Below the pieces are notes generated by a model. The model saw nothing but the letters and a program-made list of their open reading frames with translations, did no database searches and had not been told where the DNA came from. This document shows positions 8,491 to 56,217 of a stretch of DNA of 64,000 bases, one piece after another. The position numbers and the translations under genes were made by a program. The DNA is from Dechloromonas denitrificans (lineage in GTDB: Bacteria > Pseudomonadota > Gammaproteobacteria > Burkholderiales > Rhodocyclaceae), in the NCBI RefSeq assembly GCF_020510685.1, contig NZ_CP075185.1:2294001-2358000 (forward strand). The letters run 5' to 3'. Position 1 is the stretch's first letter; the number at the start of each line of letters is the position of its first letter.

Positions 8491-8761
8491 TTTTGCTCGC
8501 ACTTTGTCGTGATGGGCAAAAAATCGCCCGTTTTCAATACTGTTGTCGGCCGGCATTGTCCCACGCCGCCTGCGCTGCGGTCCATGCGGCTGCAACAGGT
8601 GGCGCACGCCAGCAAAAACAGCCTGGCACCACGCCGGTGCGTCGCTTGGAAAAAGCGCCTGTTTTAGTGCTGCTAAATGCCCGAAAGCCGCTTCTACTGG
8701 GCGTTTTGACGGGCACATCAATTGCTTCGTCAGATATACATGTTGGCAACTGGAGATTTGC

Positions 8762-34558: not shown

Positions 34559-34598
34559 GGCCCGCTGTACCAGCAGATGAATGCCAGCACAGCAGGCC
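34559..34598 (-). terminator. Intrinsic terminator after the DUF6152 operon
   Basis: Arms GGCCCGCTGT (34559-34568) and ACAGCAGGCC (34589-34598) with one mismatch. On the minus strand the stem is followed by TTTTGTTGTTT. It sits between the secreted-protein gene and the cytochrome gene. Confidence 0.7.
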
Positions 34599-34636
34599 GA
34601 GCCTCTTCCCGTTCCGGAGGTCAGCGCAGGTTCAGA

Positions 34637-35584
34637 TCAACGGACGCCGCCATTGCCGTGGCCGCCGTTGTTCTCGGTACATATCTGCTCGTAGCGTTCC
34701 AGAATCTTCTCCTTGCCGGCATGCTTGGCCGGGAAGAGGATGTTGTTCCAGTTGTCGTGAGCGAAGTTCTCGACCCGGCGGATGGGAATGGTGATGGTGA
34801 ACGGACGGGTGAATACCGTCGGATCATCGTAGGTCGCGTGGTAGAGGAATTTCTGCCGATCGCTGTCGAAGACGTAGCGCTCGGTGATCTTGGCGTTTTC
34901 GCTGAAGAATTCGCCGGACCGCCCGAAACGTCCTTTGCCGTTGTTGTTGGCGACATCGACGACCAGCGTGTTGCCTTCCCAGTGACCGCGTGAGTCGCCA
35001 TTCCACAGCTTGACCTTCTGATGCAGATGCGGCTTGTTGTCGAGATGGATCACCCGTGTCCCGGAGTCGAACAGGAAAACAACGTAATCCTTGTACTGGC
35101 GGATATCGAAGCCATGCCACATGAAGGACTTGGACGGACCGGCCGGGGCGCAACGGGCCAGCGGCTCGATATATTCCGGCTTGGTCGGATCGAGCAGATG
35201 CTTGGCGAACTCATCGGCCTTTTCCCTTGCCCAGGGCTGGAATGGCACCTTGCCGTCGGCCGGATCGCTGATCCGGCTCGGCGCTCTGACCACCTGCCTG
35301 GCAGGGGCTTCCCCTTCGCGGCGATTTCGCTCGGTGTAGGAACCAGACTGGGTCAGATCGGAGTGGTTGCCGATGGTATTCGACCAGGCACCCTGCACAT
35401 CGGGCTGTCCGTCAGGCAGGTGCGGGCCTTTCCACTTGCCCTCGTCGACCTTGAAAACGGTTTTTTCACGCTGGAACTTGGGCAACGGCTCCTCGGCAGC
35501 GCTGGCCACAACTGGCGCGGCGATGAAGAGTGCGGCGACCAGCGCAGGAATCCGCAAACTCCGGAAATTAACGATAGTGTTCAT
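34637..35584 (-). CDS. Secreted protein, WEGxTLVVDV family, paralogue 1
   Basis: 315 residues from ATG 35584 (MNTIVNFRSLR), with AGGTGAG upstream. Sec signal peptide ending near ASAAEEPLP. The C-terminal half carries NGDSRGHWEGNTLVVDVAN, ITERYVFDSDRQKFLYHAT and DPTVFTRPFTITIPI, which align with the same parts of the next gene upstream, so the two are paralogues. An N-terminal part has DVQGAWSNTIGNHSDL. Such proteins occur beside TonB receptors and DUF6152 proteins in many environmental bacteria, with no known activity. Likely periplasmic. Confidence 0.75.
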   Translation of the reverse strand: MNTIVNFRSLRIPALVAALFIAAPVVASAAEEPLPKFQREKTVFKVDEGKWKGPHLPDGQPDVQGAWSNTIGNHSDLTQSGSYTERNRREGEAPARQVVRAPSRISDPADGKVPFQPWAREKADEFAKHLLDPTKPEYIEPLARCAPAGPSKSFMWHGFDIRQYKDYVVFLFDSGTRVIHLDNKPHLHQKVKLWNGDSRGHWEGNTLVVDVANNNGKGRFGRSGEFFSENAKITERYVFDSDRQKFLYHATYDDPTVFTRPFTITIPIRRVENFAHDNWNNILFPAKHAGKEKILERYEQICTENNGGHGNGGVR

Positions 35585-35616
35585 AAGTTTCTCACCTGTT
35601 CGATAGTTCGCAGCCG

Positions 35617-36489
35617 TCATTGCTCGACAGGCACCGGATAGTATTTGTCGTAATCGAGCGTGAAGCAGTAGTTCTCGACCAGTTGGAAGTTCTTCTCGCG
35701 ATGGCGATGCAGGATCACGGAGATATCCCAGGGACGACTGAATACGTTCTTGTCTTCGATGGTGGCCTTGTACTCGACAGTATTGGGATCGAGGTACTTC
35801 CAGCGTTCGACCACATGCAGCGCATCGCTGTGGTAGTTGCCGGCGCGGTCGAGCCAGGTTTGGTCATTGAAATGCTTGACGTCCACAACCAGCGTATCGC
35901 CTTCCCACTTGCCGCGTGAGTCGCCCAGCCACCAGTCGTTCGGGTCAGCCGGATGCTCGGTGTTGTTGGTATGCACGGTGCGCACCGAATGGCCGAACTG
36001 ATGATGGATGGTCAGATCGCGGGCCCGCTGGAAGATCTGGAATGGCTCCGGGTAATAGACGCTGCGCGGCACGCTGAGCGTGTAGCACTTGTTGCGTGGA
36101 TCGGCGCGTTCCCGCTCGGCGAAGTTTTTTTTCTTCTGCTCAAGTGCGTTCGGCAGATAGGGAATCTCGCCGCCCTCAACGACGCCCGGTCCGGACGGCA
36201 CGGGTTGCGTTCCATCACGGCGTGCCGAATGGGGTTCGAGGTCGTAGTCGGCGGCACTGGTCGTCTGCCAGATGCCGGAAAAGTCCGGCTTGCCATTGGC
36301 GAGACGTGGGATCTTGCCCGATGGCGCAGCAAATGCCTCACCACCGCTGACCACGGACAGGGCGGAAAGACTCGCCACCAAGGCCACGGCCAAGAAGTAT
36401 TTCGACCATCCGGTACGGCATTTCCGGTCGCAATTAGTTAAAAGGCCGCTGGCGGCCTGGTGCTTTGTATTCAAGGGATTGTTCTCCAC
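35617..36489 (-). CDS. Secreted protein, WEGxTLVVDV family, paralogue 2
   Basis: 290 residues. A polar N-terminus is followed by a hydrophobic signal segment (YFLAVALVASLSALSVVSGGEAFAA); the long n-region suggests that a later start is possible. Then KPDFSGIWQTTSAADYDLEP, and the shared block LGDSRGKWEGDTLVVDVKHF, VVERWKYLDPNTVEYKATIED, NVFSRPWDISVIL. Four conserved aromatic/acidic blocks match paralogue 1. Precedes it by 32 bases in the same operon. Function unknown. Confidence 0.75.
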   Translation of the reverse strand: MENNPLNTKHQAASGLLTNCDRKCRTGWSKYFLAVALVASLSALSVVSGGEAFAAPSGKIPRLANGKPDFSGIWQTTSAADYDLEPHSARRDGTQPVPSGPGVVEGGEIPYLPNALEQKKKNFAERERADPRNKCYTLSVPRSVYYPEPFQIFQRARDLTIHHQFGHSVRTVHTNNTEHPADPNDWWLGDSRGKWEGDTLVVDVKHFNDQTWLDRAGNYHSDALHVVERWKYLDPNTVEYKATIEDKNVFSRPWDISVILHRHREKNFQLVENYCFTLDYDKYYPVPVEQ

Positions 36490-36519
36490 GGGATCCTGTG
36501 ATCAACGGTCAAATGCGTA

Positions 36520-36933
36520 TCAGGTGCCCGCCGGGGCCGGCGCATCCTGAGCGCCACCGGTCTTGAACACCTTGCCGTCAGCCGTCTTGATCGTCACCGC
36601 GTAGGCATACGGTTTGCCACTCTTCGAACGGAAGCCGTTGACCGTCACTTCGACGCCCGGCTGCAGGACGCTCTTATCCAGACCGCGTTGCTGCAGGGCA
36701 TACGGCGAACCGAATTCAAAGCCCCAATTGGTTACCGTTCCATCGGCATTTTTGACGTCGACATACAGCCAGCTGTGCGGATTAACCCACTGCCCCTTGG
36801 TAACGTTACCCTTGATTTCAACCGGCGCCTCGCCGTCGAATTCGGCGGCAAAGGCATGATGGGCATAAACCGCCGAACTACCGGCAAACAGGCCCGCGCC
36901 AATCATTGCGAGAATGCCAAGTTGTTTTTTCAT
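36520..36933 (-). CDS. DUF6152 family secreted protein
   Basis: 137 residues from ATG 36933 (MKKQLGILAMIGAGLFAG), a clear Sec signal peptide. The mature protein opens with the family motif AHHAFAAEFD and continues as a small beta-barrel-like domain (EIKGNVTKGQWVNPHSWLYV, GVEVTVNGFRSKSGKPYA). The conserved His pair next to the cleavage site may bind metal (inference). First gene of a three-gene unit with the two WEGxTLVVDV proteins, and the gene nearest to the sigma-54 promoter candidate. Confidence 0.8.
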   Translation of the reverse strand: MKKQLGILAMIGAGLFAGSSAVYAHHAFAAEFDGEAPVEIKGNVTKGQWVNPHSWLYVDVKNADGTVTNWGFEFGSPYALQQRGLDKSVLQPGVEVTVNGFRSKSGKPYAYAVTIKTADGKVFKTGGAQDAPAPAGT

Positions 36934-37047
36934 GATGTTTCTCCAAGTCAAAAAATGATCGATGTACATTGCTGCGATTCCAGTACCGGTTGTTGACGGA
37001 TCAATCAGGCCCGTCGCTCGTTGCCGCAGCAAGCTGCCACCTTCATC

Positions 37048-37062
37048 GCAAGGCGTGTGCCA
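37048..37062 (-). promoter_or_regulatory. Sigma-54 promoter candidate of the DUF6152 operon
   Basis: Minus strand TGGCACACGCCTTGC: GG and GC exactly ten bases apart, with TGGCAC and TTGC complete, as in the -24/-12 consensus. The predicted transcript start is near 37036, about 100 bases before the gene. Confidence 0.75.
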
Positions 37063-37090
37063 CGCTGAAGCGCCGTCCGCTCCTCGTCGA

Positions 37091-37128
37091 AAAAAACATT
37101 TAACAATATGAATTTATTGATGTTTTTT
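37091..37128. promoter_or_regulatory. Inverted repeat upstream of the sigma-54 promoter, possible activator site
   Basis: AAAAAACAT (37091-37099) and ATGTTTTTT (37120-37128) are perfect inverted copies, with CAATA/TATTG as inner arms. The element lies about 55-90 bases upstream of the predicted start, near where enhancer-binding proteins bind. Confidence 0.5.
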
Positions 37129-37284
37129 AGAAATTCTCCACAACGGAAGCTGCCCGGGCCAATTCTTCAAAGAAATTCCAAAGCAATAACTGATGCGGAC
37201 GCAGCAGCCCGGCGAGCCGGGTGCTTCTCCCGAAACACCGGCAATTCCGGGAACCAGCAGAAAATTGCCGGCACCAGGCCAAAA

Positions 37285-37319
37285 AAAGCCCCGCACACCG
37301 GTGAAGGTGACGGGGCTTT
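37285..37319 (-). terminator. Intrinsic terminator of the cytochrome c' operon
   Basis: AAAGCCCC (37285-37292) pairs with GGGGCTTT (37312-37319). On the minus strand the right arm is followed by seven T. Lies 27 bases after the cytochrome c' stop. Confidence 0.85.
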
Positions 37320-37345
37320 CGAGGAAAAAAATTTGCAGTGCCGAA

Positions 37346-37816
37346 TCAGTCCTTGACCTTGAAATCGTCGTGACAGGCCTTGCAGGTCTGGCTCAATTTG
37401 CCGAACTGGGCCTTGATAGCCGCACTGTCGCCACTGGCTGCAACTTTGGCCAGTTCGTTGGCTTCGCGATTGAAGTTGCCGGCCAGTTCGCCAACCTTTT
37501 GCTGATTCTTGAAAAACTCGGGCTTGGTGGCGGTTTCCTTCCACCCCTTGCCGGTTTCCGTACCCGGCGCAAAGAGTGCGCCGATACCGCTGTTGGCCAA
37601 CGCAGCAATGGTATTGGCCGAGCGAACGACCTCTTCCTTGTTGAATTGCCCGTCGACATTTGCCTTGATCCGGCCACTGTTCCAGCCCAGGACCTGATAG
37701 ACCGACTGGCGCCACTTGATCAACTGCTCGGGCTTGGCACCGGCCTGCTGGGCAAATGCCCCGGCCGAACAGGACAACAACAGCGCAGCAAGCAGCGAAC
37801 TGATAACGTACTTCAT
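37346..37816 (-). CDS. Cytochrome c' (class II)
   Basis: 156 residues. Signal peptide (VISSLLAALLLSCSAGAFA) and a four-helix body with the haem motif CKACHDDFKVKD at the very C-terminus, diagnostic of cytochrome c'. Early helix IKWRQSVYQVLGWNSGRIKA contains the usual distal-side residues. Binds NO/CO-type ligands or scavenges radicals in the periplasm. Last gene of the unit that starts with the TonB receptor at 42.7 kb. Confidence 0.92.
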   Translation of the reverse strand: MKYVISSLLAALLLSCSAGAFAQQAGAKPEQLIKWRQSVYQVLGWNSGRIKANVDGQFNKEEVVRSANTIAALANSGIGALFAPGTETGKGWKETATKPEFFKNQQKVGELAGNFNREANELAKVAASGDSAAIKAQFGKLSQTCKACHDDFKVKD

Positions 37817-37907
37817 TGATACTCCTTGAATTGAATGAAAAGCAGGTCAGGCAAGGCCTGAAAACGTGAGGCCCGCCAGGGCGGGAATGAAAGCCCCGCT
37901 TTATTCC

Positions 37908-38798
37908 CTAACTACCCAGATGCGTATTGAAAAAGCCAACCGTTCGCTGCCAGGCCAGCTTGGCAGCCGCTTCGTCGAAACGCGGCGTTGTATCGTTGTT
38001 GAAGCCATGCTGAACGCCCGGGTAAATGTGGGCCGTGTACTTGACGCCGGCCGCCTTCAGCGCCTCTTCGTATTTAGGCCAACCAGCGTTGATCCGGGTG
38101 TCCTCACCGGCATAGTGGATGAGCAGCGGCGCCTTGATTCTTGCCGCATCTTCAGCCGCCGGCTGTGCGCCATAGAACGGTACGGCGGCGGCCAGGTCAG
38201 GAATCCTGGTCGCCAGCACGTTGGCAATGCTGCCGCCGTAGCAGAAGCCGACGACACCGACCTTGCCATTGCCTTCGAGCAATTGCTTCAGGTGACCGAA
38301 TGCCGCGATGACGTCTTCCCGCGCCTTGCCCTGGTCGAGCTTCGGAAAGAGCTCGCGCGCCTTGTCCTCGTCGCCAGGGTAACCACCCAGGGGAAACAGA
38401 CCATCCGGCGCAAAGGCAATGAAGTTGTCGAGCGCCAGGCGACGGGCGATGTCCTCGATATGCGGATTCAGGCCGCGGTTTTCATGGACGACCAGCACGA
38501 CCGGCAACTTCCCCTTGGCCTGCGCCGGCTGGACAAGATAGCCGCGGATCGTCCCATTGCCCTGGGGCGACGGATACTCGACGTAAGCGCCCTTGATCCT
38601 GGCATCCGTCGGCTTGACCTGCTGCGCCTCGGCAAAGCGCGGATTCAGGGCATTGAGCAGGCCTTCGGCGGTCAGGCCGGCGACCGCATATTTACCGGCT
38701 GATTTAAGGAATTCACGACGAGGAATGAGGCCGTGCACAAATTTATCGAAAAGCTGAAGGACTTCGGGATGGAAGTCCTTGGCTGTCTGACGGGGCAT
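37908..38798 (-). CDS. Dienelactone hydrolase family protein, Tat-exported
   Basis: 296 residues. Alpha/beta hydrolase with the dienelactone hydrolase triad: Cys in GVVGFCYGGSIANVL, Asp in YAGEDTRINAGW, and His in GVQHGFNND. The N-terminus has a twin-arginine motif (PRREFLKSAGKYAVAG), so it is predicted to be folded and exported, unlike cytoplasmic catechol-pathway DLHs. It may cleave a lactone or ester in the periplasm. Forty-one bases downstream of the SMP-30-type gene. Confidence 0.9.
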   Translation of the reverse strand: MPRQTAKDFHPEVLQLFDKFVHGLIPRREFLKSAGKYAVAGLTAEGLLNALNPRFAEAQQVKPTDARIKGAYVEYPSPQGNGTIRGYLVQPAQAKGKLPVVLVVHENRGLNPHIEDIARRLALDNFIAFAPDGLFPLGGYPGDEDKARELFPKLDQGKAREDVIAAFGHLKQLLEGNGKVGVVGFCYGGSIANVLATRIPDLAAAVPFYGAQPAAEDAARIKAPLLIHYAGEDTRINAGWPKYEEALKAAGVKYTAHIYPGVQHGFNNDTTPRFDEAAAKLAWQRTVGFFNTHLGS

Positions 38799-38839
38799 GG
38801 ATGAATCTCCTGCGATGGGTAATGGTGACTGGATCTGGA

Positions 38840-39832
38840 TTACTTGGCCCGGCCGGCAAAACCCGGCGTCAGGAGCGCAATCCTGTAGGCCGAGCCGCGG
38901 CCGACGACATACAGCGTCTTCTTGTCCTTGCCGGCAAAGGCGATGTTCTGCGGTTTCTTCGGCGTCGGGATGATGCCCAGTGCGTCGCCCTTCGCTGAAA
39001 ACACCTCGATGCCGGCGTTCGAGGTGGCGTACAGTCGCCCCTTCTCGTCGACAGCGAGGCCATCGGCACCGCTGGAATAGCCGTTATCGGTCTTCGTGTA
39101 GCCGGCCAGTTTGGCGAAGTTACGCCGCTGGCCGATGCTGCCATCGTTGCCGAGGTCGTAGGCAATGATGTATTCGCCGGGTGTATTGGCGACGTAGAGC
39201 ACCTTTTCATCCGGGCTCAACTGGACACCGTTGGGCCGTTCGATATCGTTGGCAATGCGTTTCAGCGCTCCTCCCGGCGTAATCTGATAGACCGCCGGCT
39301 TGCCGACGGGCGGCTGATCGGGCTTCTGGGCCGCCCCGGAATCGGTAAAGAAGATACCGGCCCGCCGGCCAACGACGATATCGTTCGGCCGGCCGAAGGA
39401 AACGCCCTCGTAGCTGTCGGCCAGTGTCCGTACCTTGTCGGCCGGAGCGATGACGCCGACCCGCGGTTCGCGATTCTGGACGGAAACCAACTCGCCATAG
39501 GCACTGAAGCCCAGGCCGTTTGAGCCGTTACTGTTTTCGAGATAGGTCGAAACGCTGCCATCGGCAGCGATACGGGTAATCCGGCTATCCTGGGTTTCGG
39601 TAAAGATGACGCTACCATCCGGCAGCCTTACCGGCCCTTCGGTGCCCTTGAATCCATCCCTGATGAATTCAATCCTGGTTCCTGCCTCGACAACACCGGG
39701 GATGGCTGTCGGAACGGCCTCTTGGGCCTGGATGGCGCCGGCACAAAGCAACAGGGCGGCAAACAACGGCCGGCTATGTTTCGGTCGAATACCGCAGTCG
39801 CCATCGGCTTTTTGCTGATTTTCAATATTCAT
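38840..39832 (-). CDS. SMP-30/gluconolactonase-like protein, secreted
   Basis: 330 residues. Six-bladed propeller of the SMP-30/lactonase family: EGPVRLPDGSVIFTETQDSRI, SFGRPNDIVVGRRAGIFFTDS, ERPNGVQLSPDEKVLYVANT and GADGLAVDEKGRLYATSNAG. The calcium-binding Glu, Asn and Asp of the family are in these blocks. Signal peptide (PLFAALLLCAGAIQA). Predicted to hydrolyse a lactone in the periplasm, the same chemistry as the neighbouring DLH. Confidence 0.9.
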   Translation of the reverse strand: MNIENQQKADGDCGIRPKHSRPLFAALLLCAGAIQAQEAVPTAIPGVVEAGTRIEFIRDGFKGTEGPVRLPDGSVIFTETQDSRITRIAADGSVSTYLENSNGSNGLGFSAYGELVSVQNREPRVGVIAPADKVRTLADSYEGVSFGRPNDIVVGRRAGIFFTDSGAAQKPDQPPVGKPAVYQITPGGALKRIANDIERPNGVQLSPDEKVLYVANTPGEYIIAYDLGNDGSIGQRRNFAKLAGYTKTDNGYSSGADGLAVDEKGRLYATSNAGIEVFSAKGDALGIIPTPKKPQNIAFAGKDKKTLYVVGRGSAYRIALLTPGFAGRAK

Positions 39833-39969
39833 GAACTATGGGTCCCAATGCAGCTGCTATCAAATGGCAGCAAATGACATGTCAGGCGAGCAGTCTCGGC
39901 ATGGCAATTACCGGACGCGTCACCCGTTTGCCCCCCGACGCGGAATCGGGGGGCAACAAATGCGGCCGA

Positions 39970-42720
39970 TCAAATTTTCGATTTGAAGACCAGCATCCAG
40001 GTCCGCGGAGATCCCCAGGTAACCGTCTGGGCTGCCGTACTCGACCAGGTGCTGGCACTGGTGTAGTACTCCTTGTCGAGCACGTTGCGGCCAAGCACCG
40101 AGACTTCCCAGCTTCGATCAAGCGCGCCCAGACCAATGCCGAGGTTGGTCACGGTATAGGCCTCCTGATAGGAGAAGGAAGCGTGGTTGTCGTTGAGGTA
40201 AGCACCCGAGCGATAGCTGTTGCTCAAGCTGAACCGCCCGAGATAACCGGCAACCGGCGCCTGGTAGTTGAAACCGTAGCTCAGGGACAGCTTCGGCACA
40301 TTGGTCACCTGCTCGCCCTTCAGGTCGAAATACTTGGTCGCCGAGATTTCCGGAACCTGCGCCAACCACTCGGTTTCATACTTCGCAATGTTGTACGCGG
40401 CATTGAAATCAAGCGACAGACGGCTGTTGTACTGATAGGCCGTTTGCAGTTCCAACCCCTTGGCTCCGATCTTCTCGACGTTGCCCCAACCGCTGACAAA
40501 GGAACCCGGTGAGGCCGGATTCTCGCGGCGCCAGGAAGCCTGGTAGTTCTTGATGGTGGTGTAATAGGCATTGGCATTCAACATCAGCTTGCGATTCAGC
40601 AACAAGCTCTTGAAACCCAATTCCAGGTCATAGGTCTCCTCTGGCTTGATCTGGGTTTCATCTGCCGCGCCATCGGTGCCGAAGAAGATGAAGCCGGACT
40701 TGACGCCCTTGCCGTATGACGAATAGAGCAGCACATCGTCGTTAACTTTGTAGCTTGGCCCAACATTCCATGCCGTCAAAGACGCCTTGATCGGGTTACC
40801 GTTGCGCCAGTCGAACGCGGAATACACTTGGCCATCGCGAATTGCCTGGGCTGTTGTAATGAGCGGGCTGTTGGCAGCAAGGCCGAGTGAGGTACCAAGC
40901 GCCGCCAGGTTTTCGCCGGGCCGATCGATCTGGTGGGAAACCCGGTTTTCCTTGGTTTCCTCGGTTTGGCGGACACCGAAGGTCAGCGTTGCCTTCTCGG
41001 TCAGGTGCCAGTCGGCCTGACCGTAAGCGGCGAGACTTTCGACCCGGGCATCCGTCACGCGGGATTGATAGACACCGTTCAGCGATGCCTGGAGCAAGGC
41101 GCGGCCGGCGGCGCTTCCCATCAGGCTGGTGAACTGATTGTCCTTGGCATACCAAGCCCCGGCATCCTGCCCGTAGTAACTTGGGTCATCGCTATAGACA
41201 CGGGCTTTCAGGTAATACAGGCCGGCCTGATAGTCGAGCTTCTTCGCCGGGCTGGGCGTCGAAGAGAAACGCAACTCCTGTGAAAACTGCTCGTTCCAAA
41301 GTTGCTGACCACTGTTGCTGACGTAGAACTGACCATACTGGCCGCCATTCTTGATATCGAAATCCTGATAGCGGTAAGCGGTGATTGAGGTCAGCGTATG
41401 GTCGGCGACACGCCAGTCAAACGTACCGGCGAGCCCCCACTGATTGGTAATCTGTGGGCGTGCTTCGGAATTCTGGATATCCGTCGTATTCAGCGGCGGC
41501 TGATAGACGCTGCCGTTGGCATTGTGGAACCAGGCCGCCTTGCGGGCAAACTGGCCGAGATAGCCATAGTTCGCATAGCTGCCGGTCGGTGCATAACTGA
41601 ATGGCGTCACCGTCGGCCGGGCCGAACCGTCGGCGTAAGTCGTCGGACCGTTCGAGACCAGCGTATTGCCGGTATTCACCCGCTCATCGGAACGAAGTTT
41701 GTCGAAGATGAAGCGCCCCGTCAGATCCTCGCTCGGCGTCCACAACACCTGGAAACGACCTGCCAGCTTGTTGCTTTCACGCCAGGTTTCCTTTGAGTGG
41801 CCCATCGATTGATAGGTATTGGTATAAATCCCATCGCTGCGGTCGGCCACGAAGTTGGCCCGATAAGCCAGCAAGCCGTCGACCAGCGCGCCGGTCGACG
41901 AAAATTTCCCGCTCAGGGTGTTCTGATCGCCGGTAAACAGTTCAAACGTCGATGCTTTCCTGAAGCTCGGCGCCTTGGTCAGGATATTGATCGCGCCGAG
42001 CGAGGTATTCTTTCCCATCAGCGTGCCCTGCGGTCCGTTCAGGACTTCGATGCGATCGAGGTCGACGTAATCAGCCCAGGCCTGACCCGAGTAGTACAGC
42101 GTGACGCCGTCGACAATGACGCCGACGCTTTGCTCCATCGAATCATTCGCCCCGCCCCGGCCCAAACCGCGAATCGATGGGCTGACCTTGCGGGCATTTT
42201 CACCCGGATTGTTGAGCTGCAGATTCGGCACTTTGGACGGCAAGTCATAGATCGACTTGATGTCTTCGCGGTCGAGCCGATCCCCGCCCAAAACCGTCAC
42301 CGGCAAAGGCACGTCCTGAGCAATTTCCTCGCGGTTGCGTGAGGTGACGATGACCTTGTCGAATGCGACTACGCCGTCATCGCCGGCCTGTACCGGTACA
42401 TTCGGCTTGGTAACAGCGGAGGTGGCGTCCCCACCGGAAACGACCGTTGCCGGCACGCCAACCGCCGCGGCACCATTGGCGCGTTGTTTCAGGGCCTCGA
42501 TTTCTTTCTTCAGGCGGAGGTTTTCGGCCTGCAGCTCCGTCAGTGCCTTGCCATCGTCGGCCGCATAAGCCTGCCCCGACCCGAGAAATGCGAGTCCCGC
42601 CATCACGGCAAGCGTGCTCGCGCGCACTTTGAAGCTTGGCCAAAGCTCGCTCCCGGCCCCCCCTGAATACCCCACCCGCTTTCTCGAAGACAGCGAGATG
42701 GACGATGTTGTTACTGACAT
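39970..42720 (-). CDS. TonB-dependent outer-membrane receptor with N-terminal coiled coil
   Basis: 916 residues. A signal peptide (LAVMAGLAFLGSGQAYA) after a long n-region is followed by a coiled-coil segment (LTELQAENLRLKKEIEALKQ). The plug domain has VTSRNREEIAQDVPLPVTVL, SIRGLGRGGANDSMEQSVG and DRIEVLNGPQGTLMGKNT. The 22-strand barrel ends in the aromatic-hydrophobic WMLVFKSKI. Imports a large or scarce substrate using TonB energy. The coiled coil before the plug is unusual. First gene of a unit with a lactonase, a hydrolase and a cytochrome; no ligand is implied by the sequence itself. Confidence 0.92.
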   Translation of the reverse strand: MSVTTSSISLSSRKRVGYSGGAGSELWPSFKVRASTLAVMAGLAFLGSGQAYAADDGKALTELQAENLRLKKEIEALKQRANGAAAVGVPATVVSGGDATSAVTKPNVPVQAGDDGVVAFDKVIVTSRNREEIAQDVPLPVTVLGGDRLDREDIKSIYDLPSKVPNLQLNNPGENARKVSPSIRGLGRGGANDSMEQSVGVIVDGVTLYYSGQAWADYVDLDRIEVLNGPQGTLMGKNTSLGAINILTKAPSFRKASTFELFTGDQNTLSGKFSSTGALVDGLLAYRANFVADRSDGIYTNTYQSMGHSKETWRESNKLAGRFQVLWTPSEDLTGRFIFDKLRSDERVNTGNTLVSNGPTTYADGSARPTVTPFSYAPTGSYANYGYLGQFARKAAWFHNANGSVYQPPLNTTDIQNSEARPQITNQWGLAGTFDWRVADHTLTSITAYRYQDFDIKNGGQYGQFYVSNSGQQLWNEQFSQELRFSSTPSPAKKLDYQAGLYYLKARVYSDDPSYYGQDAGAWYAKDNQFTSLMGSAAGRALLQASLNGVYQSRVTDARVESLAAYGQADWHLTEKATLTFGVRQTEETKENRVSHQIDRPGENLAALGTSLGLAANSPLITTAQAIRDGQVYSAFDWRNGNPIKASLTAWNVGPSYKVNDDVLLYSSYGKGVKSGFIFFGTDGAADETQIKPEETYDLELGFKSLLLNRKLMLNANAYYTTIKNYQASWRRENPASPGSFVSGWGNVEKIGAKGLELQTAYQYNSRLSLDFNAAYNIAKYETEWLAQVPEISATKYFDLKGEQVTNVPKLSLSYGFNYQAPVAGYLGRFSLSNSYRSGAYLNDNHASFSYQEAYTVTNLGIGLGALDRSWEVSVLGRNVLDKEYYTSASTWSSTAAQTVTWGSPRTWMLVFKSKI

Positions 42721-42748
42721 TACCGATCCTCTCTGAAGGTCACAAAAC

Positions 42749-42758
42749 GTTACGTAAC
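42749..42758. promoter_or_regulatory. Perfect palindrome at the predicted TonB-receptor transcript start
   Basis: GTTACGTAAC, self-complementary, 29 bases before the receptor start and over the predicted sigma-54 transcription start. Possibly an operator; a short palindrome can occur by chance. Confidence 0.35.
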
Positions 42759-42768
42759 AACCCCTTTC

Positions 42769-42783
42769 GCAACGACTGTGCCT
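42769..42783 (-). promoter_or_regulatory. Sigma-54 promoter candidate of the TonB receptor operon
   Basis: Minus strand AGGCACAGTCGTTGC: GG and GC ten bases apart, GGCAC and TTGC intact, only the first T of TGGCAC replaced. It closely resembles the promoter of the DUF6152 operon (both GGCACA, then TTGCGA). Confidence 0.7.
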
Positions 42784-42993
42784 GCTTCAGGAGGCGCCAT
42801 TACGGCTGCCCGGAAAAATCAAAAAACCAATCCAATCATTTGATTTATAGAATATTTCATAAAACAACAAAGTCGCTTGGCAAGGCCCTGCATCGACCAG
42901 CATCAGCCCTGTTCCAGCCGGTGCTGCTGCTCCGGCCACAGCGATACGATCAACATGCTGCGCTGGCAGCAGCCGCCAACGGGATCGCCGGCG

Positions 42994-43066: not shown

Positions 43067-43966
43067 TCAAGTCTCGGCCGGCACGTCCTCCTTACTTCCC
43101 TGAGCGGCCCGCCACTCGATGAAACTCTTGATCACCAGCGTCAGCAAGGCAAGGATCGCCAGCAGCGAGGCCACGGCGAAAGCGGCAGCGAATTTGTACT
43201 CGCTGTAGATGATCTCGATATGCAGCGGCATGGTGTTGGTCTCCCCACGGATATGCCCGGAGACCACCGATACCGCGCCAAATTCGCCCATGGCCCGGGC
43301 ATTGCAGAGAATCACGCCATAGAGCAGGCCCCACTTCACGTTGGGAATGGTGACATGCCAGAAGGTCTGCCAACCGGAGGCGCCGAGTACCGTCGAAGCC
43401 TCTTCCTCATCCTTGCCTTGCGCCTCCATCAGCGGAATCAATTCCCGCGCGACAAATGGAAAAGTCACGAAGATGGTGGCCAGTACGATCCCGGGAACGG
43501 CGAAAACGACCTTCATGTCGTTGTCGATAAACCACGACCCCAGCCAGCCGGTCCGCCCGAAGACGAGGACGAAGATCAGACCAGCAACGACCGGCGAGAC
43601 AGAGAACGGCAGGTCGATCAGGGTAATCAGGAAGGATTTCCCGGGGAAATCGAACTTGGCGATCAACCAGGCTGCCGCGACACCGAAAACCAGATTGAGC
43701 GGTACCGAGATAAGGGCGGCGATCAGGGTCAGCCTGATCGCGCTCAGCGCATCCGGTTCGATCAACGCGGCCAGATAGGCATCCCAGCCCTTGCGCAGTG
43801 CCTCGTAGAAGACAACGATCAAGGGCAGCAGCAGGAAGAGGACGAAGAAGGTCAGCGAAATGCCGATGATGGTCCATTTGACCCAGTTGCTTTCCCGCGT
43901 CGCCGGATTGCTCTCGTACCGTTCGGCGTGGGCCTGACTGAGATGGAGGGAAATTGCGCCAGCCAT
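43067..43966 (-). CDS. cysW: Sulfate/thiosulfate ABC transporter permease CysW
   Basis: 299 residues from ATG 43966 ([17 protein letters not shown]), whose first base overlaps the cysT stop. Six membrane helices and the binding-protein-dependent permease loop [19 protein letters not shown]. CysW features include [23 protein letters not shown]. It forms the membrane channel with CysT. The normal next gene, cysA (ATPase), is missing; the operon ends at a terminator. Confidence 0.94.
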
Positions 43967-44793
43967 TATTTGGACTTTCCGGTACGTTTCGCCGTCCATG
44001 TCTGGAGGCTGTTGATGGTAATGAGCAGGATGAAGGAAACGACCAGCATGACGGCGGCAATGGCCGTCGCGCCACGATAGTCATACTGTTCCAGCTTGGT
44101 GATGATCATCAGCGGCGTGATTTCGGAAACCAGCGGAATATTGCCGGCGATGAAAATGACCGAGCCATACTCGCCGACCGCCCGCGCGAAGGCCAGTGCG
44201 AAGCCGGTAAGCAGCGCGGGAAACAGTGTCGGGAAGATCACCTTGCTGATGGTCTGCCAGCGATTGGCCCCGAGGCTGGTTGCCGCCTCCTCGATTTCGA
44301 CTTCGAGATCTTCCAGCACCGGCTGAACCGTTCGCACGACGAAAGGCAAACCGATGAAAACCAGAGCCAGCAAGACACCGAGCGGCGTGAACGCGACCTT
44401 GATGCCGAGCGGTTCGATGAGGCGGCCGATCCAGCCGTTGCCAGCCCACAGCGCGGTCAACGCAATGCCGGCCACGGCCGTCGGCAGCGCAAATGGCAGA
44501 TCGACCAGCGAATCGACAATTTTCTTGCCGGGAAAGGTGTAGCGCACCAGACTCCACGCCAGCAGCATGCCAAACACGGCATTGATTGCCGCGGCGGCCA
44601 GCGAGGCGCCGAAAGTCAATTTGTACGAGGCCATGACGCGTGGCGTCGTGACCACGAACCAGAACTGCTCCAGTGTCAGCTCGGCCGTCTTGATGAACAC
44701 CGCAGCCAGCGGGATCAGGACAATCAGCGACAGCCAGGTCAGCGTGTAGCCCAGGGATAGATTGAACCCGGGCAAGGCATTGCGATTGCTCAT
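43966..44793 (-). CDS. cysT: Sulfate/thiosulfate ABC transporter permease CysT
   Basis: 275 residues, also called CysU. Six membrane helices, with the EAA loop [21 protein letters not shown] and the conserved [18 protein letters not shown]. Pairs with CysW. Upstream is a 177-base gap after the second TonB receptor gene, in which I cannot pick a convincing promoter. Confidence 0.94.
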
Positions 44794-47164: not shown

Positions 47165-48169
47165 TTACTTGATGTAGATCTGGTCGAAGACGCCACCATC
47201 GTCGAAGTGGTCCTTCTGCACCTTGGTCCAGCCGCCGAATTCCTTGTCGATGGTCACCAGCTTCAGCTTGGCGAACTGCTTGGCATACTTGGCAGCAACC
47301 TTGGCATCGGTCGGACGGTAGAAGTTCTTGCCGGCGATGTCCTGACCTTCTGCGGAATACAGGTAGTTCAGGTATTCGGTTGCGACCTTGCGGGTGCCCT
47401 TCTTGTCGACGATCTTGTCGACCACGGCGACCGGCGGCTCAGCCAGGATGGAGACAGACGGGGTGACGATCTCAAACTTGTCCGGACCGAGTTCCTTGAC
47501 GGACAGGTAGGCTTCGTTCTCCCAGGCAATCAGCACGTCGCCGATGTTCCTTTCGACGAAGGTGGTCGTCGAGCCACGTGCGCCGGAGTCGAGCACCTTC
47601 ACGTTGCCATAGAGCTTCTTGACGAATTCCTTGGCAGTGGCATCGCTGCCCCCCGGCAGTTGCTTGGCATAAGCCCAGGCAGCCAGATAATTCCAGCGGG
47701 CGCCGCCGGATGTCTTCGGATTAGGGGTAACAACCTCAATACCCGGTTTGACCAGATCGCCCCAGTCCTTGATGCCCTTCGGGTTGCCCTTGCGGACGAG
47801 GAGGACGATGGTCGAGGTATACGGCGAGGCGTTCAGCGGAAACTTCTTCTGCCAGTCCTTGGCCAGCAGATTGGCATTGGCCACTGCATCGATATCACCG
47901 CCCAAAGCCAGCGTGACAACATCGGCATCCAGACCGTCGATGACAGCGCGGGCCTGCTTGCCGGAACCACCATGGGCGGCCTTGATGGTCACCGTTTCGC
48001 CGGTCTTGGCTTTCCAGTGTTTGGCAAAGGCAGCGTTGTATTCCTGATAGAGTTCGCGCGTCGGATCGTAGGAGACGTTGAGCAGATTGACGTCAGCGAA
48101 GGCGTTGCCGCCGAAGGCAAGGCCAAGAGCCAGTGCAATCAGGCCGCGGCGGGTGTTGTTGAACTGCAT
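47165..48169 (-). CDS. sbp: Periplasmic sulfate-binding protein
   Basis: 334 residues. Signal peptide ([16 protein letters not shown]), then [21 protein letters not shown], the family start. The sulfate-contact region is [20 protein letters not shown]. Further family blocks are [20 protein letters not shown] and [16 protein letters not shown]. Delivers sulfate to CysTW. Preceded by an AT-rich leader (48215-48260), where a CysB-type activator might bind, but I cannot identify a definite site. Confidence 0.95.
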
Positions 48170-48352: not shown

Positions 48353-49003
48353 TCAATTGGCGTATTTGACGGTGCACCCGTAAGGCTGGGTGCTGGCATG
48401 GGCAGGCTTCTTGCCGCCGGCCAGATCGTTCAGCGCCAGCTTGACATAATTGTCGGCCTTGGCGATATCGTCCTTCTTGATGGAAGCGACACTGTCGATA
48501 CCGCCCTTGTAAACCAGCTTACCGTCCGGATTGACGATGAAGATATGCGGCGTCGTGACCGCTTCGTAGAGCCGACCGACCTTGCCGTCGGGATCGAGAA
48601 CCGTGCCGGTCGGGGCCGCGCCGCGATCAACGTTGAGCTTGAGCGCGGTCGCGCCGTCGACATGTCCCTGCTTGCCCGGCGCCGAGGAAATCACCTGCAG
48701 CCAGACGATGCCCTTGCCGACGGCATCCTTCTGCAAGGATGGAATATTGCCGCTCTCGTAATGCTTCTTGACGAACGGACAATCATGGTTGGTCCATTCC
48801 AGCACCACGGTCTTGCCACGATACTGCTCAAGGCTGATCGTGCCGCCGCTGGCGGCCGGCGCACTGAAAGTCGGTGCCGGCTGGTCGAGATTGGCCACGG
48901 CACAGGCAGAACTCGTGACGAGCGCAAAGGAAAGGCCGGCGGCTATGGCCCAAACGGATTTTCTTTGGGGCGCGGTCGCCCCCAAAAAAGGGTTGAGTTT
49001 CAT
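48353..49003 (-). CDS. Periplasmic redoxin (AhpC/TSA-like)
   Basis: 216 residues. Signal peptide (WAIAAGLSFALVTSSACA). Thioredoxin-fold domain with LDQPAPTFSAPAASGGTISL, the redox centre NHDCPFVKKHY (a single Cys, CPF-V in place of CxxC) and TPHIFIVNPDGKLVYKGGID. A further Cys is near the C-terminus (QPYGCTVKY). ATGA overlap with the dsbD stop: it is probably the partner reduced by that DsbD. Confidence 0.88.
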   Translation of the reverse strand: MKLNPFLGATAPQRKSVWAIAAGLSFALVTSSACAVANLDQPAPTFSAPAASGGTISLEQYRGKTVVLEWTNHDCPFVKKHYESGNIPSLQKDAVGKGIVWLQVISSAPGKQGHVDGATALKLNVDRGAAPTGTVLDPDGKVGRLYEAVTTPHIFIVNPDGKLVYKGGIDSVASIKKDDIAKADNYVKLALNDLAGGKKPAHASTQPYGCTVKYAN

Positions 49004-51165
49004 GAAGACTCCTTCTGGATAGTTGGGGATAAAACGGGAAGCAAGGTTTGACGGACCGTGTCGGGGGTCAGCAACTGTGGTAGCACGACCGGCTTGCTGT
49101 CGGCCCCCGGCGGGTAATAGACATAGAGCGGCACGCCGCTTCGCCCGAACTCACCGAGATAGGCCGTGATTTGCCGGTCCTGATTGGTCCAGTCGCCTTT
49201 CAGGTAGACGATGCCGCTGGCCTTGAAAGCCTCGATTACCGAGCTATCGCTCAGGGCTACCCGCTCGTTGACCAGACAGCTGATGCACCAGGCAGCGGTC
49301 ATGTTCACGAATGCCGGCTTCCCTGCCTGACGCAATTCGCGTAACCGTTCTGCCGAATATGGCTGCCAGTGTTTTTCGCTGGCCTCGCTGGCGACAGGCG
49401 ATCCAGAGAGTACAGCCACGGCATCGACACCGAAACCGCCACCGACCAGCGCGACGAAAACAGCCAGTGCCGCAAAGCCCGCGCCGCCGTGCCGGGTCCA
49501 TGAACTTCCCCGACGTGTCACCGCATACAACCAGCCGGCCAACCCAATCAGCACCATGCCCCCAAGCGCGACCAGAACGGCATTCGGCCCGCCCTGCTGG
49601 GCCAGCACCCAGACCAGCCAGACCGCCGCACCGTACATCGGGAAAGCCAGCGCCTCCTTGACCCGCTCCATCCAGACACCGGGCCTTGGCAACAGACGCT
49701 GCAAACGTGGCCAGGTGGTCAACAACAAATACGGAAAAGCCAGTCCCAGCCCGAGACTGAGGAAAATCGCCAGCAGCCCCGGCGCCGACTGGCTCAGCGC
49801 GTAGCCGATGGCGGCGCCCATGAACGGCGCAGTACATGGCGTGGCGACGATGGTTGCCAGCCCGCCGGTGAAGAAACTGCCGCTGTAACCGCCGCGTGCG
49901 GCCAGCGAGGAGCCGACACCGACGGTCGAAGCGCCGATGGTGAACAAGCCGGACAGATTGAGGCCGACACCGAACATCAGATAAGCGACGATGAGGACGA
50001 AAATTGGCGACTGGTATTGAAAGCCCCAGCCAATTGCCAGGCCGCCAGCCTTGAGCAGGATCAGTACGCCGGCCAGCAAGGCGAAGCTGAACAACACCCC
50101 GGCCGTGTAGGCCAGGCCCTGCAAGCGTTTCTGCAGCGGCGAATATTCGGCGTGTTTCAGCAAGGACAGCGCCTTGATCGACAGCACCGGGAAGACGCAG
50201 GGCATCAGGTTGAGGACGATGCCGCCGAGAAAGGCGAACAGCATGGCCGCCGCGACACCAAGGTCCCCCTGGCCGGCGGCAGAAGCCTTCGGCGCGACCA
50301 GCTCGAAACCGATCAGGCGTTCGCCATCCGGCATCGCCTCGCCGATGACCAGCACACCGCGCAGCGTTTCGCCCAGCGCTGATGAATCGTTAGTGGCCGG
50401 CAAATTTAGCCTGAGCACCCGGCCGTCGACGGCAAAGTGCTGTCCTGCGCTGTGGTTGATCGTGCCCCACTGTTCGGGATAGAACCAGGCACTGCTAATT
50501 TTCGCCTGGGCGATGCGCTCGCTGTCCAACCGAAGTTGCAACGAGCCGTCCTCGGTCCGGACAAAACTGCTCTCGCCCGGCGCGGCCAGCGGCAAACGAC
50601 CGACCGCCCGCGAGATAACCGGGCTGCCCGCCCCACTTTGGGGATTGCTGGCTACTACCGGCAGAGCGAGGCCGAGTTCGACCTCCTCGGGAATGCACTC
50701 TTCCTGACAAACCAGCCAGTTGACCGTGGCCCGCAGGACAAAATGCCCGCCGACAGGAATATCGGCAGGCACTTTGAGCCGGCTCAGCAGCGTTACTTCG
50801 CCCTCGTAGCCATAATTGGTCACCGGCCCCATGGCAATGCGTCCCGGTACCGGCCATTCGATTTCCCCGGCTTCAGCCCCCTTCGGTAACACCCAGTCGA
50901 TGCGGGTGGGCACCCCGGAGTCGCCCGGATTGCGCCAGTAGGTATGCCAATGCGGAATGATCTGCTGCTGAACGCCGAGCAGGATTTCAGATCCCGGCTG
51001 CACCGCATCGAGCGATGCGACCAGCGTGGCCCGGACATGTGGCGTAGCCACCGAAACCGGCGGTGTACCGGCCGCTTCGGCACCGCTCATGGCCAGCCCG
51101 GCCAGCACCAGCCAGCCGGTGCGACGCCGCAGGAATCGTGAAACAAATTGCATCACCCTGACCAT
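49000..51165 (-). CDS. dsbD: DsbD-type thiol:disulfide interchange protein
   Basis: 721 residues from ATG 51165; ATG 51153 is an alternative. The periplasmic N-terminal domain has a VCQEECIPEEV cysteine pair. About eight membrane helices include the redox-active cysteines in LNLMPCVFPVL and VATPCTAPFMG. The C-terminal thioredoxin domain has CISC (MTAAWCISCLVNERV). Moves electrons from cytoplasmic thioredoxin to periplasmic proteins. The long N-terminal domain is of the ScsB-like kind. Genes either side encode a redoxin and a haem-binding-like protein. Confidence 0.93.
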   Translation of the reverse strand: MVRVMQFVSRFLRRRTGWLVLAGLAMSGAEAAGTPPVSVATPHVRATLVASLDAVQPGSEILLGVQQQIIPHWHTYWRNPGDSGVPTRIDWVLPKGAEAGEIEWPVPGRIAMGPVTNYGYEGEVTLLSRLKVPADIPVGGHFVLRATVNWLVCQEECIPEEVELGLALPVVASNPQSGAGSPVISRAVGRLPLAAPGESSFVRTEDGSLQLRLDSERIAQAKISSAWFYPEQWGTINHSAGQHFAVDGRVLRLNLPATNDSSALGETLRGVLVIGEAMPDGERLIGFELVAPKASAAGQGDLGVAAAMLFAFLGGIVLNLMPCVFPVLSIKALSLLKHAEYSPLQKRLQGLAYTAGVLFSFALLAGVLILLKAGGLAIGWGFQYQSPIFVLIVAYLMFGVGLNLSGLFTIGASTVGVGSSLAARGGYSGSFFTGGLATIVATPCTAPFMGAAIGYALSQSAPGLLAIFLSLGLGLAFPYLLLTTWPRLQRLLPRPGVWMERVKEALAFPMYGAAVWLVWVLAQQGGPNAVLVALGGMVLIGLAGWLYAVTRRGSSWTRHGGAGFAALAVFVALVGGGFGVDAVAVLSGSPVASEASEKHWQPYSAERLRELRQAGKPAFVNMTAAWCISCLVNERVALSDSSVIEAFKASGIVYLKGDWTNQDRQITAYLGEFGRSGVPLYVYYPPGADSKPVVLPQLLTPDTVRQTLLPVLSPTIQKESS

Positions 51166-51197
51166 GATCACTTGCCGAGTTGAACCGAAAATACCGA

Positions 51198-51707
51198 TCA
51201 GCGCAGGCGTCCTTGAATCTTCTGCACGCCGACCAGGCCACACTCTTCATCGACATTGCTGCCGCGAGCACCACCGACACCGACGGCACCAACGACTTCA
51301 CCGCCCACCGACAACAGCACACCACCGGCACGGGCATTGAAGTTAGTGTTGGCAGCAATCTTGTCGGCGAGTTCCTTGTCGGTCTTGACCCGCTCAGCCA
51401 ATTGGCTGGTCGGCGCTTTGAAAGTCAGCGCCGTCACCGCCTTGTTGGTACTGGAACTGACACCGCGTGGCGAGGCACCGTCGGTAGCCAGCAGCACCCG
51501 CAGGACACCGGCGGAATCGACAACACTGACCGCAGCCTTCTGGTCACGTGCCTTGCAGGAGTCGATAGCCGCTTGGGCGGCTTCAAGCGCCAGTTCAAAT
51601 GATGGGCCGCGGGCTGGCGGCGCGGGAGTGGCCGGAGCGGTTTGGGCAAACACGCTCGACGCGGCGCACAGCAACGCGGCGCAGGCGAGCAGTTGGTTCT
51701 TTTTCAT
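51198..51707 (-). CDS. GlcG/HbpS-like secreted protein (DUF336, haem-binding family)
   Basis: 169 residues from ATG 51707 (MKKNQLLACAALLCAASSVFA). Mature protein with the DUF336 fold: LALEAAQAAIDSCKARDQKA, VSVVDSAGVLRVLLATDGAS, NKAVTALTFKAPTSQLAERV, and the glycine-rich end GGEVVGAVGVGGARGSNVDEEC. Family members include the haem-degrading HbpS and GlcG. Periplasmic. The substrate is not given by sequence. Confidence 0.85.
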   Translation of the reverse strand: MKKNQLLACAALLCAASSVFAQTAPATPAPPARGPSFELALEAAQAAIDSCKARDQKAAVSVVDSAGVLRVLLATDGASPRGVSSSTNKAVTALTFKAPTSQLAERVKTDKELADKIAANTNFNARAGGVLLSVGGEVVGAVGVGGARGSNVDEECGLVGVQKIQGRLR

Positions 51708-52331: not shown

Positions 52332-52341
52332 CGCGATGTCC

Positions 52342-56095: not shown

Positions 56096-56217
56096 AAAAA
56101 CAAATTGGTTGGCTCCCGAAAAGCGCTCGGAATAATGGGGTCGTGCATTGCCCGGCAGCAATACCTTCGCTGCCTGACAAAGCCCACTTCCTTCCAGCCA
56201 CTACCCCGGAGAATCCC

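Follow-up and report, generated by a model that had tools for sequence, protein, structure and literature searches.

The present study concerns a locus in Dechloromonas denitrificans at which consecutive groups of genes for envelope proteins lie behind -24/-12 promoter elements, and asks which signal turns these groups on and what their products may do. A first-pass annotation of the window, by which we mean the whole stretch of 64,000 nucleotides that was analyzed, had interpreted two such groups as an inducible pathway importing and processing a lactone- or ester-containing compound. The larger gene set to which both groups belong is probably turned on in this soil or water bacterium when sulfur runs out, and we put the probability of a sulfur-starvation regulon with SfnR-type control of three operons, which together form an envelope system, at roughly 0.77.

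Organization of the island and its promoters

The two groups are part of a unidirectional island of approximately 20 kb on the minus strand (34.6-54.1 kb of the window), which holds three operons and sulfate-transporter genes; all features described below are on that strand. Both groups, with their -24/-12 elements, were present as originally described when gene content was assigned by Pfam. The first encodes a TonB-dependent receptor (39970..42720; PF00593 and PF07715, plug and barrel, with an N-terminal coiled-coil-like extension recognized by eye), an SMP-30/gluconolactonase-like (SGL) protein (38840..39832; PF08450, signal peptide by eye), a YghX-like dienelactone-hydrolase (DLH) family protein (37908..38798; PF01738, with a twin-arginine-type leader by eye and 426 bits against NF041440, which does not reach the cut-off of 460), and cytochrome c' (37346..37816; PF01322). 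The second encodes a DUF6152 protein (36520..36933; PF19649), WEGa (35617..36489; GTG start, no match in Pfam or NCBIfam), and its paralogue WEGb (34637..35620), which is 34% identical over WEGa residues 59-267.

A third operon, the promoter of which starts at 53987, had been missed. It encodes a Cys-less, rhodanese-like protein, RHOD (53414..53863), judged by eye to be exported; two DUF6644 membrane proteins (52855..53349 and 52342..52815; PF20349 in both); a cytochrome c'-like lipoprotein (51759..52355), in which a CxxCH motif near the C terminus and a lipobox were recognized by eye and PF01322 scores 24.5 bits, short of the cut-off of 26.5; an HbpS-like protein (51198..51707; PF03928); and, by Pfam, a DsbD-like thiol:disulfide interchange protein (49000..51243) and an AhpC/TSA-family protein (48353..49003), the gene of which is followed by a terminator-like stem (48323-48296). 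The sulfate permease CysTW-Sbp is likewise encoded inside the island, over curated cut-offs: the substrate-binding protein of a sulfate ABC transporter (47165..48169; NF008022, 528 bits, cut-off 288), CysT (43966..44793; TIGR02139, 424 bits, cut-off 246), and CysW (43067..43999; TIGR02140, 421 bits, cut-off 329).

Each of the two annotated operons is closed by a terminator, as had been stated. A 17-pair stem with a T tail (34598-34559) ends the DUF6152 operon, and a stem at approximately 37325-37285, which was read by eye because its loop is beyond the length limit of the terminator scan, follows the cytochrome c' gene. The scan returned 33 terminator-like sites versus 22.1 in shuffles, and, therefore, the long stem alone is telling. 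A second cytochrome c (34138-34530; Cytochrome_CBB3) lies past the 34598-34559 terminator and was rejected as a member of the DUF6152 operon; therefore, of the two kinds of cytochrome c that had been placed in this range, cytochrome c' is the only one within it.

The -24/-12 elements of the DUF6152 operon (TGGCACACGCCTTGCG; 37047..37062, starting at 37062) and the TonB operon (AGGCACAGTCGTTGCG; 42768..42783, starting at 42783) have GG and GC ten bases apart, as described for them, and agree with the flanking consensus; that of operon 3 (TGGCACGATAGCTGCA; 53972..53987, starting at 53987) also matches the consensus. The sigma-54 consensus and the scoring weights are general knowledge. A scan 5' of either annotated operon revealed no sigma-70-like promoter. 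Near-identical elements precede RHOD in three other loci (L018, L044, and L073), and 4 of 24 RHOD genes, including both acidobacterial ones (L093 and L094), were without a good element. This conservation in relatives, which was also apparent in the held-out test described below, and the sigma-54 factor encoded in the genome (PF04552, 221 bits) support the earlier proposal of a sigma-54-type, activator-dependent, and inducible envelope system, and the prediction of sigma-54-type promoters for the three operons is well supported.

The upstream repeat and an SfnR-like activator

An inverted repeat, GCTGYTG-N6-CARCAGC, occurs 136-150 bp upstream of each of the three -24/-12 elements. Its copies at 37187..37210 before the DUF6152 operon (score 15.6, center 136 bp before the -24), 42921..42944 before the TonB operon (15.1, 149 bp), and 54126..54149 before operon 3 (TGGGTGCTGCCAATTCAGCAACCG; 14.5, 150 bp) rank as the best, second best, and third best in the window, and the three top matches over 64 kb are, thus, the three promoters. 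The palindrome search yielded 83 sites, from which the window's own three were dropped, and the scoring model was trained on other loci. The spacings fall inside the 80-200 bp expected for activator sites, and the copies may be regarded as candidates for such sites.

By themselves, -24/-12 matches are common (27 sites scoring 14.1 or more in 380 kb of the own genome, and seven in the window), and those of the three operons are significant because they are paired with the repeat: at a repeat cut-off of 14, chosen with the window scores of 14.5-15.6 already known, no pair was found in the 380-kb own-genome background and three promoters carried one in the window. A fourth window pair shares the repeat of the third promoter; its -24/-12 element is weaker and lies 78 bp away from that promoter. 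The sulfate permease differs from the operons in that its genes lie between them, and neither sbp nor cysT was preceded by such a pair at the thresholds used. Without a -24/-12 element, the repeat lacks genome-wide specificity (144 matches with at most one mismatch versus 238 for the reversed control) and failed as a regulon finder by itself. The repeat with a -24/-12 element was also found 5' of msuE, adjacent to SfnR-type activators, in three Pseudomonas/Burkholderia records, none of which had been used in training.

In a held-out test of upstream stretches from the best 80 of 232 loci matching WEGa, positives were obtained for RHOD (16/24), the TonB6 receptor (13/27), the TonB9 receptor, which is the window's kind (6/15), and DUF6152 (14/61), versus none for the operon-internal controls WEGb (0/71), the second DUF6644 (0/41), and the cytochrome-like protein (0/36); the backgrounds gave 0/251 for the own genome and 24/790 for other genes in the loci. 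Upstream stretches of insufficient length had been excluded, leaving 61 of 62 for DUF6152, 67 of 68 for WEGa, and 41 of 42 for the second DUF6644. When two held-out halves were compared, the three repeats of the window did not reach the 5% threshold in one of them, and scores as high as theirs were obtained for 14-15 of 300 stretches upstream of other genes in these loci (15 of 300 at 15.0 or above). Unlabelled regulon members have probably contaminated this null, and, therefore, own-genome stretches were used as the background, a choice that favors the repeat motif and beside which the same-loci result stands.

The activator matching the island ranks first among 18 matches in the genome (415 versus 264 bits). 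It comprises a Sigma54_activat domain (PF00158, 225 bits) from residue 25 and a Fis-type HTH_8 at residues 305-344; no other N-terminal domain was matched, and the protein is, thus, without a receiver domain. Relatives in three loci (L062, L064, and L058) share this layout, with the HTH_8 of the latter two slightly under the cut-off, and close relatives (57-58% identity) adjoin msuE with ssuD or sfnG in all three annotated plasmid regions that were opened. The activator gene lies near sulfur-assimilation genes, sulfhydrylase genes adjoin both the island and the activator, and ExbB/ExbD adjoin the activator with two strong repeats in between. Among 60 same-genus genomes, including its own, SfnR was present in six (E<=1e-100), RHOD (E<=1e-10) in the same six plus one copy with an internal stop, and DUF6152 and SMP30 (E<=1e-60) in four each, every one of which was SfnR-positive (Fisher 1.4e-7 and 3.1e-5). 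Eight genomes of the order contained distant DUF6152 proteins without SfnR at the cut-off used, two others contained SfnR without RHOD, and the activator was within the stretch fetched in just 19/80 loci (best 80 of 232). Judged by its sequence, the matching activator is SfnR-like and co-occurs with the island genes in the genus.

The SfnR/sigma-54 regulon of pseudomonads has sfnFG and msuEDC as targets. The island resembles it in an activator without a receiver domain, a -24/-12 promoter, the same upstream inverted repeat, and sulfur-related targets, whereas the targets in pseudomonads are FMN-dependent monooxygenases and those in the island are envelope proteins (the TonB receptor, DUF6152, WEG, DUF6644, and cytochromes); relatives of SfnG, MsuE, MsuC, and SfnB were found in 0/80 WEGa loci, and SsuD in 1/80 (best 80 of 232). 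The function of SfnR itself is taken from published work (PMC12581299, and titles cited in PMC13352529).

Sulfur-poor composition and conservation of the envelope proteins

The seven proteins of the two annotated operons contain 15 Met and Cys in 2207 residues (0.68%), compared with 2.01% in 54 exported-like background proteins picked by a rough signal-peptide rule (p=7e-7), and this low content is a sulfur-sparing signature. Across loci, WEGa, DUF6152, RHOD, and TonB6 were similarly poor (p from 4e-12 to 1e-21, from related sequences that are not independent), 112 of the 120 WEGa homologues listed have no Met after residue 40, and the sulfate-binding protein has neither Met nor Cys past residue 35. 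The cytochrome-like, HbpS, ExbD, activator, and RND proteins were not clearly Met/Cys-poor, and DUF6644 was borderline. According to parts of one report, low Met/Cys is found in proteins used at sulfur shortage in cyanobacteria and in assimilation enzymes of E. coli and yeast (PMC5513900); in contrast to these cases, the depletion here extends over a large part of an envelope system, including a Cys-less rhodanese-like protein. RHOD matches PF00581 at E=0.0012 and 19.7 bits, which does not reach the cut-off of 22.2, and two of five relatives scanned exceed it. The window protein has no Cys or Met past residue 35, Cys amounts to 0.03% over 24 relatives, and the catalytic Cys of the rhodanese active-site loop is absent; therefore, RHOD was rejected as a rhodanese enzyme and is rhodanese-like only by weak PF00581 matches.

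DUF6152 has invariant HH and NPHSW motifs in an alignment of 57 sequences, and its structure model predicts a five-stranded OB barrel. By fold comparison, the model of WEGa is tentatively assigned to FABP/lipocalin-like barrels, and both predicted folds would fit ligand handling. Profile searches against solved structures returned no match for WEG up to E=1 and three for DUF6152, all at E 0.15 or worse.

The conservation of the gene set was surveyed in the best 80 of 232 loci matching WEGa, which is, thus, present in all 80 by construction; some contigs were short and cut off the neighborhoods. Locus genes were called by a simple script that placed some ORFs on the wrong strand (e.g., clusters c17 and c26 over WEG genes), and, therefore, the WEG, DUF6152, and TonB cluster sizes are lower than the tblastn counts. 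DUF6152, WEGa, and WEGb are adjacent in 73/80 of these loci, from beta-, gamma-, and alphaproteobacteria to Acidobacteria. The expected co-occurrence of the gene set, thus, held for this triad and not for SMP30 (7/80) or DLH (10/80), which are, therefore, accessory rather than core. The sulfate-binding protein was within the stretch fetched in just 5/80. A CysB-type LysR protein near the triad was confirmed in L091 (NF009327), the rest of its cluster being named by likeness only.

Trigger, proposed function, and competing readings

Given the SfnR-type activator, the sulfate-transport neighbors, the operator shared with msuE operons, and Met/Cys depletion, sulfur starvation, rather than a lactone or ester, is the most likely trigger. 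Under sulfate shortage, an enhancer-binding protein of the SfnR type would act on the repeats upstream of the three -24/-12 promoters and drive sigma-54 RNA polymerase to transcribe the three operons. The TonB receptor would mediate uptake through the outer membrane; the plug and barrel of the receptor and the ExbB/ExbD adjoining the activator are as in TonB-dependent nutrient import. SMP-30, DLH, DUF6152 with its OB fold, and WEGa/WEGb with FABP-like barrels would be responsible for periplasmic ligand binding and processing, in which the lactonase and DLH proteins may act on an organosulfur ester, while the DUF6644 proteins, cytochromes c', DsbD, and AhpC/TSA would constitute a redox branch and CysTW-Sbp next to the operons would take up the sulfate set free. 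We infer that an organosulfur compound is imported by a TonB-dependent route and handled in the periplasm, such that scarce sulfur compounds would enter via envelope proteins themselves very low in sulfur. A more specific version, toward which we are slightly more doubtful than inclined, is that a DUF6152-WEGa-WEGb complex desulfurizes the compound imported under SfnR/sigma-54 control, with electrons passing via a DUF6644/cytochrome c' chain, in an apparatus largely purged of Met/Cys in which RHOD gave up its catalytic Cys, and that this is a widespread and undescribed route to sulfur.

A sulfur-starvation regulon may instead serve no uptake of sulfur compounds and maintain the envelope through a sulfur-free replacement or redox-protection set (cytochromes, HbpS, DsbD, and the Cys-less rhodanese-like protein). 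Met/Cys poverty agrees with this, as do the HbpS, DsbD, AhpC/TSA, and cytochrome-like proteins in operon 3 and the antioxidant defenses that accompany sulfur starvation in P. aeruginosa according to part of one report (PMC12581299). However, the recurrence of TonB receptors and the ExbB/ExbD genes that adjoin the activator in some loci fit uptake, and the hydrolase families and possible ligand-barrel fold fit substrate handling; we consider the replacement set unlikely.

Far less probable is the pathway of the first-pass annotation, in which a carbon or stress signal acts through sigma-54 to import and hydrolyze a lactone or ester with no link to sulfur. The SGL and DLH families are present, and an amidohydrolase cluster, one member of which was checked as PF04909, lies near the triad in 7/80 loci (best 80 of 232), but the msuE-shared operator, SfnR-family activator, Met/Cys depletion, and sulfate transporter inside the island point elsewhere, and SMP30 and DLH are outside the core. 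This pathway was not borne out as such, and it was rejected as the trigger. Marginally less probable still is a heme or metal uptake system, the expression of which is merely coupled to sulfur status; the match of the TonB receptor to the TIGR01783 siderophore-receptor model, under its cut-off, the HbpS-like and cytochrome proteins, and the invariant motifs of DUF6152 are compatible with it, but both the operator and the activator belong to the sulfur type.

In the open-license papers searched, neither a TonB system partnered by DUF6152/WEG proteins nor any mention of DUF6152 or DUF6644 was found, and among papers on TonB, dienelactone hydrolase, or gluconolactonase in connection with SfnR or sulfur starvation, no title or abstract start describes this gene set. 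The sulfur-starvation reading offers a testable physiological role for DUF6152, DUF6644, and WEG, which are families without an assigned function. SfnR-type regulons elsewhere would be easier to predict from the operator motif in combination with -24/-12 elements. With Met almost missing from one protein family across species, the data also provide a strong case of elemental economy. The same reading suggests an uncharacterized envelope route to sulfur common to bacteria from methanotrophs to Acidobacteria; WEG-family searches at E<=0.001 returned at least 7085 and 3535 proteins, in two sets that may overlap.

Three operons and a conserved core

Two minus-strand operons were present where the first-pass annotation had placed them, and their -24/-12 elements were as it had described. 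One encodes a TonB receptor (PF00593/PF07715), an SGL (SMP30) protein, a DLH protein with a YghX-like N terminus and a cytochrome c'; in the other, DUF6152 was identified as a family, and both WEG proteins, the paralogues WEGa and WEGb, gave no match in Pfam or NCBIfam. Regarding the two cytochromes claimed for this range, one is there and the second (34138-34530) lies past the terminator (34598-34559).

The genome is a single contig of 4.62 Mb. Upstream on the same strand are genes for CysW, CysT, a second TonB receptor and a sulfate-binding protein, and all but the receptor were found to exceed NCBIfam cut-offs. A third operon further upstream encodes RHOD, a Cys-less rhodanese-like protein (53414-53863), a pair of DUF6644 membrane proteins, a cytochrome c'-like lipoprotein and HbpS-like, DsbD and AhpC/TSA proteins. 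A separate -24/-12 element serves it at 53987, a stem resembling a terminator lies at 48323-48296, and an O-acetylhomoserine sulfhydrylase gene comes next at 54766 on the opposite strand. RHOD and the 24 proteins of its cluster are essentially free of Cys, and the catalytic residue is thus gone.

Among the best 80 of 232 loci encoding a WEGa relative, DUF6152, WEGa and WEGb were adjacent on one strand in 73. When the neighbours in these 80 were clustered, DUF6644-type clusters were represented in 44 and 42 of the loci; 36 had a cytochrome c'-like protein, 24 had RHOD and 18 had a sigma-54 activator (19 by tblastn with the own activator as the query). With SMP30 relatives in 7 loci and DLH in 10, the lactonase/DLH pair counts as accessory, and the core consists of DUF6152 and the WEG genes together with DUF6644 and RHOD. 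In L024 and L027 (6.6-11.7 kb), from Cellvibrio and another gammaproteobacterial source, respectively, the DUF6152-WEGa-WEGb triad occurs twice in tandem. In the alphaproteobacterial locus L087, one ORF (5281-7038) has a rhodanese-like stretch and, after it, an SMP-30-like domain; its neighbours are genes for a TonB receptor, DUF6152, WEG proteins and a LysR protein of the CysB cluster. The alphaproteobacterial loci L090, L092 and L096 were noted alongside it.

Promoter elements and a shared upstream repeat

An element scoring at least 14 was found upstream of RHOD in 15 of 24 loci against 21 of 818 other genes, and upstream of the receptor clusters TonB6 (12/27) and TonB9, the window's kind (5/15), and of DUF6152 (9/62). 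Within the set, the sigma-54 promoters of the RHOD genes are the best conserved.

A gapped-palindrome search of the stretches upstream of 82 sites (one of 83 was too short; three were the window's own) detected TGTT-N8-AACA in 27 (shuffles, 0.67) and GCTG-N9-CAGC in 20 (shuffles, 0); refinement led to GCTGYTG-N6-CARCAGC, a candidate activator site. In a two-fold held-out test with thresholds set on negatives from the same loci, the 5% threshold was passed by 16 of 37 sequences in one half and by 16 of 42 in the other, and the 1% threshold by 8 and 3, respectively. For the three repeats of the window the result at 5% was split, a pass in one half and a failure in the other, and under the full model each of them was equalled or exceeded by 14 to 15 of 300 same-locus negatives. 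With this full model, whose training left out the window, the top three scores in the 64 kb were at 37187, 42921 and 54126, and each of these repeats is followed 136-150 bp later by a -24/-12 element. Stretches of this genome totalling 380 kb contained no repeat-element pair of that kind at a repeat cut-off of 14, picked with the window scores already known. Held-out pairs preceded RHOD in 16/24, TonB6 in 13/27, TonB9 in 6/15 and DUF6152 in 14/61, compared with 24/790 other genes, and none preceded the operon-internal genes (WEGb, 0/71; second DUF6644, 0/41; cytochrome-like, 0/36) or the own-genome background (0/251).

An SfnR-like activator

The sigma-54 activator of locus L062 had 18 matches in the genome, of which the best scored 415 bits and the runner-up 264. 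This best match has a sigma-54 interaction domain and a Fis-type HTH without a receiver domain, and its gene, 137 kb from the window's edge, adjoins ExbB and ExbD. Between them are two repeats with strong scores (19.3 and 19.1); ExbB is preceded by a weak -24/-12 candidate only (12.6). Next come genes for an O-acetylhomoserine sulfhydrylase, scoring above cut-off, and a cystathionine beta-synthase-like protein, scoring below. Plasmid relatives in Pseudomonas aeruginosa, Burkholderia pyrrocinia and B. glumae (57-58% identity) adjoin msuE plus ssuD or sfnG. Their msuE promoter regions, which were outside the training set of the repeat model, gave repeat and element scores of 17.9 and 14.5 in P. 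aeruginosa, 19.3 and 15.3 in B. pyrrocinia, and 14.3 (at a fitting distance) and 14.8 in B. glumae, where another repeat (17.1) lies about 355 bp away. We read the activator as a probable member of the SfnR family.

Among 60 same-genus genomes (the own genome and 59 relatives), SfnR occurred in six, RHOD in the same six plus one copy with an internal stop, and DUF6152 and SMP30 in four each, always alongside SfnR (Fisher p for co-occurrence, 1.4e-7 for RHOD and 3.1e-5 for DUF6152). In the wider order, SfnR was without RHOD in two genomes (G063 and G090), distant DUF6152 proteins were without SfnR in eight, and G083 had SfnR, RHOD, DUF6152 and SMP30.

About 10-30 kb from the SfnR-like gene (L146, 1104-19857; G000:C1, about 2.168-2.186 Mb), we noted by eye a methionine-type ABC transporter and two solute-binding proteins that are Met-free past residue 35, together with a weak cysteine-dioxygenase-like protein (PF05995), Met/Cys-free past residue 35. 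A monooxygenase there is SsuD-like, at 206 bits where the cut-off is 518; no repeat scored at least 12 in this region. In L147, an outer-membrane efflux factor (8428-9828, by eye), Met/Cys-free past residue 35, adjoins an RND pump with the activator nearby, and related clusters occur near several triad loci.

Sulfur sparing and the proposed role

Past residue 35, Met and Cys together make up 0.68% of the seven proteins encoded by the two operons (8 Met and 7 Cys among 2207 residues); for 54 exported-like proteins from other parts of the genome the figure is 2.01% (Fisher p 7e-7, or 2.5e-8 when Met is taken by itself). Met content over the 80 loci was 0.14% for WEGa, 0.23% for DUF6152, 0.07% for RHOD and 0.21% for TonB6, compared with 1.34% for 150 other exported-like proteins; depletion was borderline in DUF6644 proteins and absent from cytochrome-like, HbpS, RND, ExbD and activator proteins. 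Among the matches listed, 112 of 120 WEGa and 14 of 120 WEGb homologues are Met-free past residue 40.

SfnR has a role in sulfone and sulfonate use, and SfnR-controlled sulfur-starvation regulons are already known. The three operons, their promoters and shared operator, the activator family, the linkage and the composition are computational observations. Sulfur starvation would raise SfnR, which would act on sigma-54 polymerase from the repeats; the TonB receptor may bring in a scarce sulfur compound, to be handled by the hydrolases and DUF6152/WEG proteins, with the WEG proteins as either carriers or enzymes, and reduced or oxidised by a redox branch, and the product may be taken up by CysTW-Sbp or other permeases. 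The chief rival would assign the set to sulfur economy or redox protection, without uptake. The envelope set was not found within an SfnR regulon in the portions of the open-licence literature searched; a stronger reading, in which the set is a previously undescribed way of acquiring sulfur, is tentative, at slightly less than even odds.

Titles in the reference list of PMC13352529 refer to SfnR in sulfone and sulfonate use, and PMC12581299 reports SfnR1 and MsuCDE up, and CysW and Sbp marginally so, in sulfur-starved P. aeruginosa. The use of sulfur-poor proteins by sulfur-limited organisms has a precedent in PMC5513900. A phasin-like protein (56143-56778, plus strand, by eye) is also Met/Cys-free past residue 35, and its low sulfur content may have other causes.
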